Shown: piece by piece, positions 23,958 to 31,487 of the stretch
Layout of the letters: each line of letters starts with the position of its first letter
Position numbering within the stretch: the first letter of the stretch is position 1
NCBI GenBank assembly: GCA_011046015.1
Contig: DSBO01000125.1
Location: 1-36,872, forward strand
Source: Thioalkalivibrio sp.
GTDB taxonomy: Bacteria > Pseudomonadota > Gammaproteobacteria > SpSt-1174
Reading direction: 5' to 3'
Length of the DNA: 36,872 nucleotides
Translations under genes and position numbers: made by a program
The notes under the pieces: model-generated
Database searches by the model: none
Told to the model about the DNA's origin: nothing
What the model saw: the letters and a program-made list of their open reading frames with translations, nothing else

Positions 23958-24644
23958 TCATTCCTTGAACAGGATGCGCAGCCTCCCCTCACGTACCTCG
24001 ATCTCCTCCACGCCGTCGGCGAAGGACTGCCAGAAGCCCGGGTCGTTGCCGAACTCCTGCACCAGGTCGATGTTCTTCAGGTTGCCGAGCCAGGCATTGG
24101 GAACCGGCACGCCCCACAGGCTCACGCCCTTCAGGATCACCACCGGCCGGCCGTTCGCGTAGCGCAGTTCCATGCCCGCCGTCACCTTGAGCGTCTCGCC
24201 GCCCAGCACGGGAAACTCCGGGTCCAGCGGCACCAGCAACTTGGCGCTGGCAAGGTTGTCGGAGAGGTCGATCGCGAGCCGGTGTGCGAGGTCGGTATTG
24301 CGTGCGAGCAGCGCGTTGAGTTCCTTCTCCGTGAAGCTGATCTCGCGGCTCGCCCCTGCCTCACTATAGGGCTCGGGGGTGAGCGGCTCACGAGGGGCCG
24401 GGGCGGCGCGACCGGCGGCGTCTCGTTGCCCGCTCAGCGGATCGAGCCGGTCCAGCTTGGCCTCCAGCACCCGCTCCTCCTTCTGGTTCAGCGTGACGGG
24501 CCGGAATTCGGCCGGGAACAGGTAGGCCCATACGATCCAGAGCGTGATGCCGACCGACAGGGCCACGGCGAGCAGTACCAGTCCAGTCGCCTTCCAGGGA
24601 AAACCGGGCCTGACGGGCACGGGCGGTTGGGGCTCGGCGTTCAT
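23958..24644 (-). CDS. Hypothetical single-pass membrane / periplasmic protein
   Basis: TM WKATGLVLLAVALSVGITLWIVWAYL, then a compact soluble domain (FTEKELNALLARNTDLAHRLAIDLSDNLASAKLLVPL). Confidence 0.8.
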   Translation of the reverse strand: MNAEPQPPVPVRPGFPWKATGLVLLAVALSVGITLWIVWAYLFPAEFRPVTLNQKEERVLEAKLDRLDPLSGQRDAAGRAAPAPREPLTPEPYSEAGASREISFTEKELNALLARNTDLAHRLAIDLSDNLASAKLLVPLDPEFPVLGGETLKVTAGMELRYANGRPVVILKGVSLWGVPVPNAWLGNLKNIDLVQEFGNDPGFWQSFADGVEEIEVREGRLRILFKE

Positions 24645-24923
24645 CGTGATTGCTCCGGGTTCGTGAACACATGCGTATACCAAGCATATCAGCAACGCGA
24701 TGAAAAACACCCGTCGCCGGTCCGGTCACGGCCACGCGAACCACAACGGGCTATATATGTCTTAATGCAGTCGTATCGCGCGTCTCACTCGGCTCCGCCC
24801 GTTTGCCAGGCACGGGGGGCGCCGGTAAAGTGGACGAGGAAAGCCCCGCGACGGCCTGAACGGCAGGCGACGCGGCCAATGGACGGTCCCGCACCACCCG
24901 CCCACACCTGACCCCAGCACCGC

Positions 24924-27878
24924 ATGCCCAGTCGCTTCACCCGCTCACACCTGACGATCGCGCTCCTGCTGGCACTGGGTCTGCTGTTCGCGGGCGTGCT
25001 GCAGATCGCATTCGACTCGCCGGACAGGGTCGAGCGCGCGCAGATGCAGCGCTGGATCGAGGAGATGAAGACCGCCTCCCGCGGCCCCTTCTACCGCATC
25101 CGCTGGTTCTGCAACGATGGCAGCGTACTGCCGCCGGGTGAGTACGTCTGCCGGGAGCGCGGCGGCGGCGTACAGCACGGCGAATGGAACGAACGCACCC
25201 TCGCGATCCGCGCCCAGGGCTACCTGGTCGGCACCCTGCTCGCGGACCTCGACACCGCCGACTACGTCGGCCCCGCGCCGCGCCTGGACGACCTGCGCCA
25301 GATCCTGCTCGAACAGTTCCTGATCGAGAACGACGACGGCTGGGTGTTCCGTCAGGCCCGTTACTACCGCGGGGCCATCCAGGTCGAGGACGAGCGCCGC
25401 ATGGCACGCGAACTGCTGCTTGCCATGGTCGACGATCCCGCCTGGCGCGACCCGTCACGGTACCTGCTGTTGCGCGAGGCGGCCCGCCTGCTGCCGATCG
25501 ACAGCGAGCCCCCGGCCGCGGCCACGGTGCGCCAGCTCGCCATCGACATCGCCGAGCAGGACCCCGGCTTCCAGGACATGCGCGTGAAGCTGCACGGGCT
25601 GCCCGACGCGCGCGACCCCCAGCGCGTACGCGACTACGCCGCCCAACGGGGCCTGCCGCAACTGGCAGACGACTACCGGCGACTGGCCGCCGAACTCGAC
25701 ACCCTCTACGCCCCGCAGACCGCAGTGAACCGGCTCGCCGAGCTCGCCGCCGAGAGCCGCAGCCCACGGGTCAAGTCCCGGCTGCAGGCGGCGATCACTG
25801 GCCTGCGCGGCGCCCGCGAGCTGGAGACCCGCCTGCACCTAGCCGCGGACCACGCCGTGCAATGGCGCAGGCTGTTCATGGCCAGCACGGAACTGGCCGC
25901 GCCTGACCGGCTCACCCTCCTGCAGGCCGGCCTGGCCCTGGAGCAGGAGGCCTACGCCGTCGGCAGCCGGCTGGCAGAGGAAGAGACCCGCGCCGATCGC
26001 CTCACCCGCCTGCGATGGCTGGCGAGCCTCGGCGCCACCCTGCACGCGGCTGGCTTTCTCTCCGATCGCCAGTGGCAGCACCTGGACCTGCACCTCGATG
26101 TGCTGGCACTGACCCCGCAACTCGCCGCCGAGACCTATGCCGGCGAGCTGCGTTACGTCGCCCGGGTGTCGCCGTGGGCGCATCGGGCGCTGGGCTTTCA
26201 CTTCGACCCGACGGTCGAGCGCTGGACCGACATCACCCCGCTTGCCGTGCACTACATCCCCGACCGGCTGCGCGGCAGCCCGCTCCTGACCTATTCCCGC
26301 GTGCTCGACACGCTACTGGAGGACGCCAACCGGCAGATCGGCGTGCGCCACGAACTGTTCGGGCGGGAAGTCGCCGGCGGCCTGCGTGCGCTCAATCCGG
26401 GGCTGCGCCGTGGCGTGCTGCTGATGCCGCCGGCCGATCCCGAGGGCTTTCGCACGGACGGCATCTACCTGCTGCCCTCGACCACGCCCGAGCTGCCGCC
26501 GGTCGCGGGCATCCTCACCCGGGGAGAGGGCAGTTCGCTCTCGCACGTACAGCTGCTCGCGCGCAACCTCGGCATTCCCAACGTGGTGCTCGACGACGCC
26601 CTGCTCCCGTGGATCGAGCCCTATCTGGGCCGGCGCGTCGTGCTCGCCGTGACGCCGCGTGGGCGCGTGCAGATCGCCGCCGACGGCCCCGAGTGGAACG
26701 CCGTCTTCGGTCTCGAGGCCCAGGCGCCCGACGTGGTCATCGTGCCCGACCTGCGCAAGCTCGACCTGCGCAGTACCGGTCTGCGCCCCCTGGGCGAACT
26801 CCGCGCCCGCGATTCCGGCCGCACGGTAGGCCCCAAGGCCGCCAACCTCGGCGAACTGGCCCACCACTACCCGGCGCAGGTCAACCGCGGCCTGGTCGTG
26901 CCCTTCGGCGTGTTCCGCGAGTTTCTCAACCAGCCGATCGCCCCCGGCGGCCCCGCGGCCTACGATTGGCTACGCGCCGAGTACGCCCGGTTGCAGCGCA
27001 TCCTGGACCCTGCGCAGCGTCAGGCCGAGACCCGCCTGATGCTCGAACGCCTGCGCCACTGGATTGTCACCACCGACCCGGGCGACGCCTTTCGCGAGCA
27101 GCTGCACACCGCGCTGGTAGCCAGTTTCGGCAGCGCCGACACCCGCGGTATCTTCGTGCGCAGCGACACCAACGTCGAGGACCTGCCGGGCTTCACCGGC
27201 GCCGGACTCAACCGCACCGTGCCCAACGTGGTCGGCTTCGAGTCCATCGTCCAGGCGATCCAGGCGGTCTGGGCCTCGCCCTTCAGTGAACGCGCCTACG
27301 CCTGGCGCCAGGCGCACATGCGCCAGCCCGAGCACGTCTATCCGGCCGTGCTGCTGCTGGAGACCTTCCCCTCGAACAAGTCCGGCGTGCTGGTCACCGC
27401 CGACATCGAGACGGGCGATCACCGCTGGCTGAGCATCGCGGTGAACGAGGGTGTGGGCGGCGCCGTCGACGGCCAGGCGGCCGAGGAGCTGCGCGTGCAC
27501 CGCGTGACGGGGGAAACGCGCCTGCTCGCCCAAGCCACCGCGCCGCGGCGCACCGAGCCCGCGCCGGGCGGGGGCATGCGCCAGGTCGCCGCCAGCGGCC
27601 GCGGCGAGGTCCTCACCCCCGACGAGATCGAGCAACTGCGCCGCCTGGCCAACGACGTGGAACGGCGCATTCCCATGCCCATCACCGCCCACGACCGGCC
27701 GGCCCCCGCCGACATCGAATTCGGCTTCAACCACGGCCGCCTCGCCCTCTTCCAGATCCGCCCCGTGGTCGACAACCCCCGCGCGCGGCGTAGCCTCTAC
27801 CTCACCGAACTCGACGACCGGGGACTGCAGGGCCCGAAGGTGATGGTGGACCTGACGGAAAGCCCTGGAGACAGATAG
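24924..27878 (+). CDS. Membrane-anchored PEP-synthase/GWD-like dikinase (swivel His domain then ATP-grasp domain)
   Basis: N-terminal TM LTIALLLALGLLFAGVLQIAF; swivel motif GILTRGEGSSLSHVQLLARNLGIPNVV; ATP-grasp motifs GPKAANLGELA...LVVPFGVFREFL, FVRSDTNVEDLPGFTGAGLNRTVPNV, GRLALFQIRPVVDN. Confidence 0.85.
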   Translation: MPSRFTRSHLTIALLLALGLLFAGVLQIAFDSPDRVERAQMQRWIEEMKTASRGPFYRIRWFCNDGSVLPPGEYVCRERGGGVQHGEWNERTLAIRAQGYLVGTLLADLDTADYVGPAPRLDDLRQILLEQFLIENDDGWVFRQARYYRGAIQVEDERRMARELLLAMVDDPAWRDPSRYLLLREAARLLPIDSEPPAAATVRQLAIDIAEQDPGFQDMRVKLHGLPDARDPQRVRDYAAQRGLPQLADDYRRLAAELDTLYAPQTAVNRLAELAAESRSPRVKSRLQAAITGLRGARELETRLHLAADHAVQWRRLFMASTELAAPDRLTLLQAGLALEQEAYAVGSRLAEEETRADRLTRLRWLASLGATLHAAGFLSDRQWQHLDLHLDVLALTPQLAAETYAGELRYVARVSPWAHRALGFHFDPTVERWTDITPLAVHYIPDRLRGSPLLTYSRVLDTLLEDANRQIGVRHELFGREVAGGLRALNPGLRRGVLLMPPADPEGFRTDGIYLLPSTTPELPPVAGILTRGEGSSLSHVQLLARNLGIPNVVLDDALLPWIEPYLGRRVVLAVTPRGRVQIAADGPEWNAVFGLEAQAPDVVIVPDLRKLDLRSTGLRPLGELRARDSGRTVGPKAANLGELAHHYPAQVNRGLVVPFGVFREFLNQPIAPGGPAAYDWLRAEYARLQRILDPAQRQAETRLMLERLRHWIVTTDPGDAFREQLHTALVASFGSADTRGIFVRSDTNVEDLPGFTGAGLNRTVPNVVGFESIVQAIQAVWASPFSERAYAWRQAHMRQPEHVYPAVLLLETFPSNKSGVLVTADIETGDHRWLSIAVNEGVGGAVDGQAAEELRVHRVTGETRLLAQATAPRRTEPAPGGGMRQVAASGRGEVLTPDEIEQLRRLANDVERRIPMPITAHDRPAPADIEFGFNHGRLALFQIRPVVDNPRARRSLYLTELDDRGLQGPKVMVDLTESPGDR

Positions 27879-27942
27879 TGGCCACCGTCAGCCCGGCAAG
27901 GGGCCACGGACAGCCGACCATCCCATGACCTATGATCACCCT

Positions 27943-29232
27943 ATGACCCGACCCGTCCGCCACGCCCTGCCCCGAGTCCTCGTCATCCTTGCGCTGTCGG
28001 TCGCGTCGGCCGTGGCGCTCGGGTACCCGATCGATGCCTACGAGGAGACCGGGATCGGGCGGCTGGAGGGGTATCGGCTGGCGAGCGAGGGAAAGATTAC
28101 GGGGAACTGGCTACCGTCGGGGGCGAAGCTGGGGCGCGACCAGATCCGGCTGCGTCTCACCGACCAGCCGGATTTCGAGATCCCGCCGGCCGACGCCGAA
28201 CTGACCCGGGCCATCGTCGATCTGCTCGGCGAATCCGCCCGCCACACCAGCGTGAGCGTGCTGGACCTGAGCGACCCGCAGGCGCCGGTCTATGCCGAGC
28301 ACAACGGGCGCGCGCTGCGCAATCCTGGCAGCGTGGGCAAGATCATGCTGGTGACGGCGCTGCTGCAGGCGCTGGCCGACCTGCATCCCGACGACATCGA
28401 GGCACGCAAGCGCCTGCTGCGCGAGACGCAGGTCACGGCCGACGCCTTCATCCGCCACGACGATCACGACGTCCCGATCTGGCGTCCCGAGATCAACCGC
28501 ATCGTGCGCCGGCCACTGCGCGAGGGCGATGTGGCCAACCTGTGGACCTACCTGGACTGGACGCTCTCGGCCAGCTCCAACGCCGCGGCCAGCACGGTGA
28601 TGAAGCAGCTCATGCTGATTCGCCACTTCGGCGCGGACTACCCGGTGTCGGCAGACGACGAACTGACCCTGTTCCGCGACATGCCCTACAAGGAGCGCAG
28701 CGCCCTGCTGCTCGACAGCCTGCTGTCACCGCTCGAGCGCAACGGCCTGGACCCGGACCAGCTGCGCCAGGGGGCGTTCTTTACCTACGAGGGCAAGCGA
28801 CGGGTGGGTGGCACCACCAGCACCAGCACGGTACGCGAGCTGGCGCGGCTGCTGGTGCACATGGAAAAAGGGGAACTGGTGGACGCGTGGTCCAGCCGGG
28901 AGCTCAAGCGGCTGCTGTACATGACCCAGCGGCGCATCCGCTACGCGGCCTCACCCGCCCTGAGCGATGCCGCCCTGTACTTCAAGTCGGGCTCGCTCTA
29001 CAAGTGCGACCGCACGCTGGACCCCAACTGCGGCAAGTACGAGGGCAACGTCTACAACCTGATGAACTCGGTGGCCATCGTCGAGTCGCCGGCCGGCGAG
29101 CCACGGATGTTCTACCTGGTGGCGCTCACGTCAAACGTGGTGGGCAAGAACTCGGCGGTCGAGCACCAGACCTTCGCCACCCGGCTGCATCGCCTGCTCA
29201 AAGCCCGGCAGTCCGTACCGGCGTCTCCATGA
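27943..29232 (+). CDS. Exported serine hydrolase of beta-lactamase/PBP fold
   Basis: Signal peptide; NPGSVGKIM (SxxK), SASSNAAAS (SxN), YFKSGSLYKC (KSG). Alternative start at 27925. Confidence 0.85.
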   Translation: MTRPVRHALPRVLVILALSVASAVALGYPIDAYEETGIGRLEGYRLASEGKITGNWLPSGAKLGRDQIRLRLTDQPDFEIPPADAELTRAIVDLLGESARHTSVSVLDLSDPQAPVYAEHNGRALRNPGSVGKIMLVTALLQALADLHPDDIEARKRLLRETQVTADAFIRHDDHDVPIWRPEINRIVRRPLREGDVANLWTYLDWTLSASSNAAASTVMKQLMLIRHFGADYPVSADDELTLFRDMPYKERSALLLDSLLSPLERNGLDPDQLRQGAFFTYEGKRRVGGTTSTSTVRELARLLVHMEKGELVDAWSSRELKRLLYMTQRRIRYAASPALSDAALYFKSGSLYKCDRTLDPNCGKYEGNVYNLMNSVAIVESPAGEPRMFYLVALTSNVVGKNSAVEHQTFATRLHRLLKARQSVPASP

Positions 29233-30091
29233 TGATGCCGTCCAGCTCGACGATGATCTGCTTCAGCCACTCGCCGCCGCTGGGGTTCTGCGCCAGCGCC
29301 ACGGCGATGTAGGTGCGTCCGCCATGCTCGACGATCGCGCTGTCGGCATGCCAGTCGCGCCAGGTGCCGGACTTGCGGTAGATCTGCGCATCCGGCGCAT
29401 CGGCCAGCAGGCCCTGCACGAACTTGTGCTTGATCGCCGGGTCGCCCAGCATGGTCTTCATCTCGCGCGACAGCTCCGGCGACACCAGGCGGCCGGTCTC
29501 CAGCAGGTAATAGAAGCGGGCCACCTGGAAGGCGGTCGCCCCGTGGGAGAGGTTGTGCAGCGGGTCGCGACGGTAGGCCGCACCGCGCCCGTATTCCTTG
29601 CCGACCCAGAGCCCACCGTTGAGGTTCGCATCGTACAGACGATACTTGGGCGAACTCAGCAGATCGTTGATATAGTCACGCCCCACCCGGTGGATCATCT
29701 CGGTGGCGGCGACATTGGAGGACTGGCGGATCATGCGGGTCATCAGCTGGCGTGTCTCGGTATCCAGCTTGAGCCTGCCCTCCTGCACGCGCTCGAAGGC
29801 CGCCAGCAGAATGGCGATCTTCGGCAGGCTGGCGGCGTAGACCATGTCGTTGCCGTTGACGTGGGCGAGACGCGGGCGGTCGCGATCAGTCACGTCGACC
29901 AGGGCCACGGCCAGCTGGTGGGCGCGCACCGCGCCGTCGAGCTTCAGGAGGCCGAGGCGTTCCTCGAGCCGTTTTTGCAGGGCCGGGTCGGCGGCATCCC
30001 GCAAAGAGATGCGATCACCGACCGGAGCCGCGTGTACCGCGGAGAGCAGGCTCAGCGAGAGCCCGAGGACCATCAGCAGTCGCAACAGCAT
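29198..30091 (-). CDS. Exported serine hydrolase, class A beta-lactamase-like
   Basis: Signal peptide MLLRLLMVLGLSLSLLSAVHAA; YAASLPKIAI (SxxK), RQSSNVAAT (SxN), YRKSGTWRDWHADSAIVE (KSG). Confidence 0.9.
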   Translation of the reverse strand: MLLRLLMVLGLSLSLLSAVHAAPVGDRISLRDAADPALQKRLEERLGLLKLDGAVRAHQLAVALVDVTDRDRPRLAHVNGNDMVYAASLPKIAILLAAFERVQEGRLKLDTETRQLMTRMIRQSSNVAATEMIHRVGRDYINDLLSSPKYRLYDANLNGGLWVGKEYGRGAAYRRDPLHNLSHGATAFQVARFYYLLETGRLVSPELSREMKTMLGDPAIKHKFVQGLLADAPDAQIYRKSGTWRDWHADSAIVEHGGRTYIAVALAQNPSGGEWLKQIIVELDGIIMETPVRTAGL

Positions 30092-30143
30092 GGACTACCT
30101 CCTGACCGTATGAAATGTAGGCATAATAGTAACTGATACGGCC

Positions 30144-30164
30144 CATAAGGTCAGTCTTATGACC
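30144..30164. promoter_or_regulatory. Two interleaved dyads in a divergent promoter region
   Basis: CATAAG-GTCAGT-CTTATG (30144-30161) and GGTCA-GTCTTA-TGACC (30149-30164) between divergent genes. Confidence 0.5.
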
Positions 30165-30197
30165 CGCAAAAATGACAATTATCAAAGATACTGAGCA

Positions 30198-31487
30198 ATG
30201 ATCATGCGTTTCCTGCGCGACACCTGCCTCGTGCGCTGTGTGCTGCTGTTCACGAATTTCCTCCTGATCATCGCCGCGGTCTATCACCTCAAGCCGGCCA
30301 GCCGTTCCATCTTCATCAGCTCGCTGGGCACCGACTACCTGCCGTACGTGTGGATCGCCACCGCGCTCGCGCTCGCGCTCACCATCGGGATCTATCACCG
30401 CCTGATCGCACACTACTCCCGCATCCACGTGGTGCTCGGGAGCTGCACCCTCGTCATTGCCATACTGCTGGCCTTCTACCCGCTGCTCAGCGACAGCGGC
30501 TTCGCCCAGGCCTTCGCCTTCTACATCTTCGTCGACATGGTCAGCGTGATCCTGGTCGAACAGTTCTGGAGCCTCACCAACACCACCTTCAGCACCAGCG
30601 AAGGCAAGCGCTGGTACGGCCTGATCGCCACCGGCGGCCTCGTGGGGGGCATGGTCGGCGGCAGCGCCTCCAGCCTCTGGATCCGCCAGTTCGGGCTGGA
30701 AACCATGGACCTGCTCCTGGTCGCCGCGGGCATCTTCGCCCTGCTCGCGCTCCTCACCCTGCTCATGGGCAAGCTCGGTCTCTACGAGGAAAAGGCCGGG
30801 GTACCCAATCACCGCGACGACTCCACCGGGGACTGGCGCGCCATCCTGCACCACCGCTACCTGCTGCTGATCGCCACGATCCTGCTGCTCGCCCAGATCG
30901 CCGAGCCGATCATCGAGTACCAGTTCATGAAGGTCGTCGAGGCCTCCATCGCCGGACGCGACGAGCGCACCGCCTACCTCGGGGCCTTCTTCAGCGTGAT
31001 GAGCGCGGTCGCCATCGGCATCAACCTGCTGATCACGCCGCTGGTACATCGCTGGCTGGGGGTGCTGGGGGGATTGTTCGCGCAGCCGCTGGCCGTGATG
31101 GCCGGCAGCCTGTGGTACATGTCGCAGGCCACGCTGCAGGCCGGCGCCTTCCTCAAGATCTCCGATCGCGGCCTGTCCTACTCCATCAACCGCGCCTCCA
31201 AGGAACTGCTCTATGTCCCCATCGAGCCGGTCCTGATGTTCCGCGCCAAGGCCTGGATCGACATGTTCGGCTACCGCCTCTTCAAGGTCGCCGGCTCCCT
31301 GCTCATCCTGCTGCTCACCCAATGGCTGCCCTGGACCCTCAGCGCCGCCCAGCTCGGCTGGCTGGTGCTCGGCATCTGCCTGATCTGGATGTTCGCCCTC
31401 ACTCACCTGGGCACCCAGTACCGGGACATCCTCGCCCGCGCCGCCGCGCTAAAGGTCGACGCCATCGGCGCCGGCAGCAGGCATTAA
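30198..31487 (+). CDS. ATP/ADP translocase (NTT)-like / MFS-related polytopic transporter
   Basis: About 12 TM helices; YHLKPASRSIFISSLGTDYLPYVWI, EQFWSLTNTTFSTSEGKRWYGLIATGGLVGGMVGG, SINRASKELLYVPIEPVLMFRAKAWIDMFGYRLFK. Confidence 0.68.
   Translation: MIMRFLRDTCLVRCVLLFTNFLLIIAAVYHLKPASRSIFISSLGTDYLPYVWIATALALALTIGIYHRLIAHYSRIHVVLGSCTLVIAILLAFYPLLSDSGFAQAFAFYIFVDMVSVILVEQFWSLTNTTFSTSEGKRWYGLIATGGLVGGMVGGSASSLWIRQFGLETMDLLLVAAGIFALLALLTLLMGKLGLYEEKAGVPNHRDDSTGDWRAILHHRYLLLIATILLLAQIAEPIIEYQFMKVVEASIAGRDERTAYLGAFFSVMSAVAIGINLLITPLVHRWLGVLGGLFAQPLAVMAGSLWYMSQATLQAGAFLKISDRGLSYSINRASKELLYVPIEPVLMFRAKAWIDMFGYRLFKVAGSLLILLLTQWLPWTLSAAQLGWLVLGICLIWMFALTHLGTQYRDILARAAALKVDAIGAGSRH

Follow-up and report, generated by a model that had tools for sequence, protein, structure and literature searches.

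Enzymes of the rifampin phosphotransferase (RPH) and PEP synthase/PPDK superfamily are cytoplasmic proteins that combine an ATP-binding fold with a phosphohistidine domain placed after it, whereas in plant GWD the phosphohistidine domain comes first and is followed by a C-terminal ATP domain. The NTT/TLC translocases of chlamydiae, rickettsiae and plastids are associated with energy import, while the roles of NTT proteins in free-living bacteria are considered open, and for the NTT-HEAT-cNBD fusions, which join a transporter N-terminus to HEAT repeats and a cNMP-binding domain, the function was stated as unknown by Major et al. in 2017 (PMC5381601). PBP-A, a serine enzyme with SxxK, SxN and KSG motifs, is a DD-carboxypeptidase and DD-endopeptidase (PMC11189452). 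The PBP-A of Thermosynechococcus elongatus has not been reported together with a dikinase or a carrier. In this work, we describe a conserved locus that encodes, side by side, a dikinase predicted to be exported, two PBP-A-like serine enzymes and an NTT-family carrier.

The window analysed, i.e., the whole stretch of 36,872 nucleotides of contig DSBO01000125.1 (Thioalkalivibrio sp., assembly GCA_011046015.1), contains five open reading frames at 23958-31487, which our ORF check placed at the same positions as a first-pass annotation that had joined them, speculatively, in a candidate five-gene envelope system. Four of these genes constitute the module: DIK, a putative exported dikinase of 984 aa (24924..27878, + strand), assigned from Pfam matches, a 65-sequence alignment, a structure model, Foldseek and an N-terminus test; HydA (435 aa; 27925..29232, + strand) and HydB (297 aa; 29198..30091, - strand, convergent with HydA), two PBP-A-like serine enzymes that look exported; and NTT, a TLC/NTT-family membrane carrier of 429 aa (30198..31487, + strand), assigned from the TLC ATP/ADP transporter profile, a tree and invariant charged residues. 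The fifth gene, an anchored hypothetical (23958-24641, - strand) with no family match at curated cut-offs in profile searches, was confirmed as an open reading frame and excluded from the module, as it was found in only 1 of 80 related loci (L050), at about 8.5 kb from DIK. Readings of the locus as an anti-phage defence system (no PADLOC match), a phage element (no viral contig encoding a relative) or a plasmid element (no plasmid place covering 80% of DIK) were likewise rejected.

Against one of the refuting outcomes named in the first-pass annotation, the neighbourhood recurs in other genomes. Scanning the genomes of 84,980 species yielded the 80 loci, which belong to at least four phyla and span Pseudomonadota (Gamma and Beta groups), Myxococcota and other 'delta' MAGs, Nitrospirota and Thermodesulfobacteriota. 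Taking as denominator the 53 loci whose downstream sequence spans 5 kb or more, HydA was present in 49, HydB in 48, an NTT-family carrier in 50 and all three in 46, and the order DIK-HydA, then HydB on the opposite strand, then NTT, was conserved in 46 of them, a linkage far beyond chance. HydA immediately follows DIK in the same orientation in 67/73 loci and, since the commonest spacing between both genes is -4 bases (ATGA), it is usually translationally coupled to DIK in these relatives. Within the class of the window genome, full-length DIK homologues in other genomes had HydA adjacent in four of four cases, and HydB and NTT as well in three of them. Three loci (L055, L059 and L093) were exceptions, having enough flanking sequence and at least two partners missing nearby. 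Clustering of all flanking ORFs revealed no further conserved neighbours beyond the four families and an NTT-HEAT-cNBD protein; the remaining large clusters have the appearance of antisense or shadow ORFs, and the genes found between split modules include Lon-like and pyruvate kinase genes, among others (names assigned by eye). One locus (L098) comes from a record titled as a Klebsiella pneumoniae MAG; its module resembles those of environmental Gammaproteobacteria, and the label is probably wrong.

Conserved co-occurrence of these families was also evident at the genome scale, and was near-exclusive in two phyla. In a sample of 229 Gammaproteobacteria spread over many families, DIK was encoded by 22 genomes; HydA occurred in all 22 and in one other (a remnant in G206), HydB in 21 and the NTT1 carrier subfamily in 20, both being absent from every other genome (Fisher p <1e-26 for each of the three with DIK, kinship of the genomes being uncorrected). 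In several of these genomes NTT1 is unlinked, lying on a different contig or at a distance of tens of kb (e.g., G199, G068, G175 and G164). A second sample comprised 141 genomes from the phylum of a 'Deltaproteobacteria' MAG placed in Myxococcota (G230, the genome of locus L048); here, DIK, HydB and a high-scoring NTT2 (at least 656 bits, the next genome reaching 389) all mark the same 11 genomes, and the NTT-HEAT-cNBD protein was found in 8 of these 11 and nowhere else. A same-genus genome that is 100% complete (G001) has none of the four genes, which indicates that the module is accessory. Furthermore, the distances for DIK correlate with those for HydA, HydB and NTT1 (Mantel r 0.74 to 0.89), and in one genome (G011) an in-frame stop in DIK is accompanied by the absence of HydB and by an NTT reduced to a fragment, a coordinated decay that supports a joint function of the module genes. 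Such decay is also seen in the DIK-less Gammaproteobacterium G206 (L121, 8147-11076), which retains a truncated HydA adjacent to genes for an NTT2 carrier and for a HAD acid phosphatase that is secreted; NTT2 may serve a different use of nucleotide or phosphate in the periplasm there.

Both serine enzymes carry the motifs that the first-pass annotation had read as those of SxxK/SxN/KSG hydrolases, namely Ser136-x-x-Lys139, Ser217-Ser-Asn219 and Lys354-Ser-Gly in HydA, which also has an invariant Cys361/Cys369 pair, and Ser88-x-x-Lys91, Ser124-x-Asn126 and Lys240-Ser-Gly in HydB; none of the three motifs varies among 44 HydA and 35 HydB relatives. The Beta-lactamase2 profile matches HydA at 3.1e-6 and HydB at 2.6e-23. 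The nearest fold to HydA, and its best PDB match, is PBP-A (2j8y, E 1e-10), with no sequence similarity to PDB entries detectable by profile search, and the closest solved sequence to HydB is the PBP-A TLL2115 (E 2e-4). HydA and HydB share fold and motifs with PBP-A of T. elongatus, and differ from it, as far as reported, in their association with a dikinase and a carrier. Neither is a canonical class A beta-lactamase by the NCBIfam cut-off, which HydB misses (12.2 vs 200 bits) and for which HydA has no match, and the omega-loop region of HydB, as placed against class A enzymes by eye, has no invariant Glu. The PBP-A likeness points no less to peptides of the peptidoglycan type than to the remodelling of a glycan. 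A hydrophobic N-terminus was found in 37 of 57 HydB; many Myxococcota HydB (e.g., L048 14240-15142) have no obvious signal at the chosen start, and in these the start codons may be misplaced or the copies may not use Sec.

Taken together, these results lead us to regard as probable that the four genes form an envelope module for ATP-dependent periplasmic phosphotransfer, in which ATP would be supplied through the NTT carrier and HydA and HydB would work on the same polymer as the dikinase. The NTT-family carrier would let ATP out of the cytoplasm in exchange for an incoming nucleotide; the exported DIK would bind this ATP in its C-terminal domain and, by a mechanism inferred from the PPDK/RPH/GWD superfamily, transfer a phosphate, by way of His541, to an acceptor that the helical N-terminal domain would hold, with release of AMP and phosphate; and HydA and HydB, as PBP-A-like DD-peptidases, would act on the polymer before or after its phosphorylation. 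Peptidoglycan, or an envelope polymer linked to it, is our tentative choice of acceptor, one that we would sooner doubt than defend, since the only pointer to it, and a weak one, is the PBP-A likeness of the two enzymes. Against the supply step, dikinase chemistry yields AMP, which is poorly carried by classical ATP/ADP exchangers, and the return of the nucleotide is therefore unaccounted for. Also against it, the periplasm has been described as lacking ATP (PMC9177699) and as containing nucleotide-degrading enzymes (PMC7432876). When a kinase was engineered into the periplasm of E. coli, the plates used to test it contained 2.5 mM ATP (PMC5038940), which fits a periplasmic kinase needing an ATP supply. 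That the carrier could feed a periplasmic dikinase had been put forward in the first-pass annotation; the near-exclusive co-occurrence in two phyla and the three NTT lineages found at the locus speak for it. Linkage, gene order and co-occurrence are established by the data; the direction of ATP movement and the shared pathway are inferred.

The assignment of the carrier to the NTT/TLC family, as first annotated, is strongly supported by its sequence. The window protein matches TLC (PF03219) at 3.9e-16, scoring 59.4 bits where the gathering threshold is 21, and the family profile matches two solved carriers over about 310 positions, 9j3n ('ADP,ATP carrier protein 1'; E 4.6e-21) and the chloroplast carrier 9j3j (E 4.5e-13). 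It resembles the chlamydial, rickettsial and plastid translocases in these respects, and differs from them in being borne by free-living hosts, in being tied to a putatively exported dikinase, in falling below the NCBIfam NTP/NDP exchanger cut-off (TIGR00769; 48 vs 387.2 bits for NTT1) and in that energy export, instead of import, is presumed. NTT1 being so far below this cut-off, its substrate could differ. A possible but rather unlikely alternative is that the module is real and its carrier moves a cargo other than ATP (a muropeptide, a phosphorylated sugar or another anion, e.g., the product of the exported enzymes), with the ATP for the dikinase imported through porins or derived from lysis. 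Besides the missed cut-off, TLC proteins, which fall within the broader MFS fold (MFS_1 also matches the window protein), include carriers of NAD and other compounds, and no nucleotide transport was seen when a relative was assayed (PMC5381601). However, many charged positions are invariant across the carrier family, and it is three NTT lineages, not arbitrary MFS families, that recur beside an ATP-binding enzyme predicted to be exported.

These lineages, NTT1, NTT2 and HEAT, were recovered with SH-aLRT values of 100, 99 and 100, respectively, in a quick, midpoint-rooted tree without bootstrap. NTT2 sits within a clade of unlinked NTTs from DIK-less genomes, which argues that a type of carrier, not one ancestral neighbour, has been retained; that the locus can hold distinct carriers, all from a single superfamily, suggests that nucleotide-type transport is what is needed. 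The third lineage includes the 1,050 aa protein that lies by DIK in 14 loci (divergently upstream in 13), all from Myxococcota wherever a phylum is given, and that resembles the described NTT-HEAT-cNBD fusions in its cNMP-binding domain and in its putative transporter N-terminus and HEAT repeats. In the L048 representative, the cNMP-binding domain matches at 5e-21, HEAT (21.2 bits) and MFS_1 (30.9 bits) are both below gathering, and TLC does not match directly; related proteins at the DIK loci L068, L062 and L117 do match TLC. As far as the papers searched show, this is the first genomic context for such fusions. Shorter NTT-HEAT fusions without the cNBD, with TLC above gathering, were observed after NTT1 in L117 (15373-18820) and beside HydA in L068 (6672-8894).

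Regarding the dikinase, DIK matches PPDK_N (PF01326; 2.5e-30) and the PEP-utilizers phosphohistidine domain (PF00391; 5.7e-6) in Pfam, and is arranged as a hydrophobic export signal (residues ~9-25), an all-helical domain (~38-472), the phosphohistidine domain (516-555) with the catalytic His541, and the ATP-binding domain (634-954). His541, Lys638, Arg746, Glu932, Gln944, Arg946, Cys63 and Cys76 are invariant in the 65 aligned sequences, and intact catalytic and ATP sites strongly support the predicted catalytic competence. The structure model (pLDDT 91) matched mainly the ATP domain of rifampin phosphotransferase in Foldseek (E 4e-13), with no PDB match to the N-terminal helical domain itself. 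DIK thus shares with the RPH and PEP synthase/PPDK superfamily the ATP-binding fold, the invariant ATP-site residues and the phosphohistidine domain, and differs in its reversed domain order, its probable export, its own helical domain of ~430 residues and the absence of a PEP/pyruvate or rifampin domain. A PEP synthase/PPDK was rejected, as the C-terminal barrel is absent (no PEP/pyruvate-binding barrel at E up to 1 in Pfam) and the His domain precedes the ATP domain; a rifampin phosphotransferase, as the NCBIfam full-length equivalog gave 91.6 vs 999 bits over the ATP domain only. The label 'GWD-like' in the first-pass annotation holds for the domain order, in which DIK resembles the plant enzyme, and for nothing else: DIK is bacterial and apparently exported, matches no starch-binding or GWD-specific family, and hits none of the carbohydrate-binding models of Pfam even at E values up to 1, and a GWD was rejected as well.

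The ATP domain is also matched by the NCBIfam prodigiosin/undecylprodigiosin ligases, which raises the reading, to our judgement improbable, that DIK is an ATP-driven ligase (cf. PigC/RedH) that would couple a peptide or small molecule in the envelope, its product then being trimmed by the PBP-like enzymes. It would be in keeping with the several acceptors used across the superfamily and with a helical domain unlike any solved acceptor domain, but phosphotransferases are better matches to the same ATP domain, and no recurring biosynthetic genes were found around the locus.

Contrary to what a cytoplasmic dikinase would display, a hydrophobic N-terminus was found in 74 of 75 DIK, followed by a strict AxA in 54, compared with 1/22 for cytosolic PPS-like controls, all scored with a home-made rule and not with SignalP; together with the positive n-region in 65 of the 75, this strongly supports export as a prediction. 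In the window protein the cleavage motif is only weak, and DIK may here be anchored in the membrane rather than cleaved. We give very little credence to a DIK tethered to the inner membrane with catalysis in the cytoplasm, beside an NTT acting as an ordinary nucleotide importer and neighbours linked by regulation only, a reading that draws on this weak motif and is opposed by the AxA and n-region counts, the invariance of Cys63 and Cys76, the exported look of HydA and HydB, and the near-exclusive co-occurrence.

The protein families are known, and no description of the four-gene module was found in the papers searched, a weak negative given that subscription journals lay largely outside the search. 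According to a review, how ATP would get from the cytosol into the periplasm is unknown, and E. coli lacks ATP/ADP translocases (PMC7432876). We see an even chance that some Gram-negatives run an ATP-fuelled periplasmic chemistry, in which a dedicated NTT-type carrier would deliver ATP to an exported dikinase, the latter phosphorylating a polymer of the envelope; if true, the periplasm of module-bearing species would not be ATP-free, and free-living bacteria would export energy via NTT proteins. The union of an apparently exported ATP-dependent enzyme and an NTT-family carrier in one conserved module allows the question of periplasmic ATP to be put to a direct test in cultured strains, among which Guyparkeria, Hydrocarboniphaga effusa AP103 and Sinimarinibacterium are carriers of the module. 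It also gives the NTT proteins of free-living bacteria a first context, and a phosphorylated polymer of the envelope may come to light.

Some loci encode another, divergent paralogue of DIK (L085 1807-6026, L122 3714-7946 and G311:C77), which in L085 and L122 shares 31-34% identity with the DIK of the window. The L085 paralogue lies divergently beside a HydB-like gene, and the pairing of a dikinase with a PBP-A-like enzyme therefore recurs.
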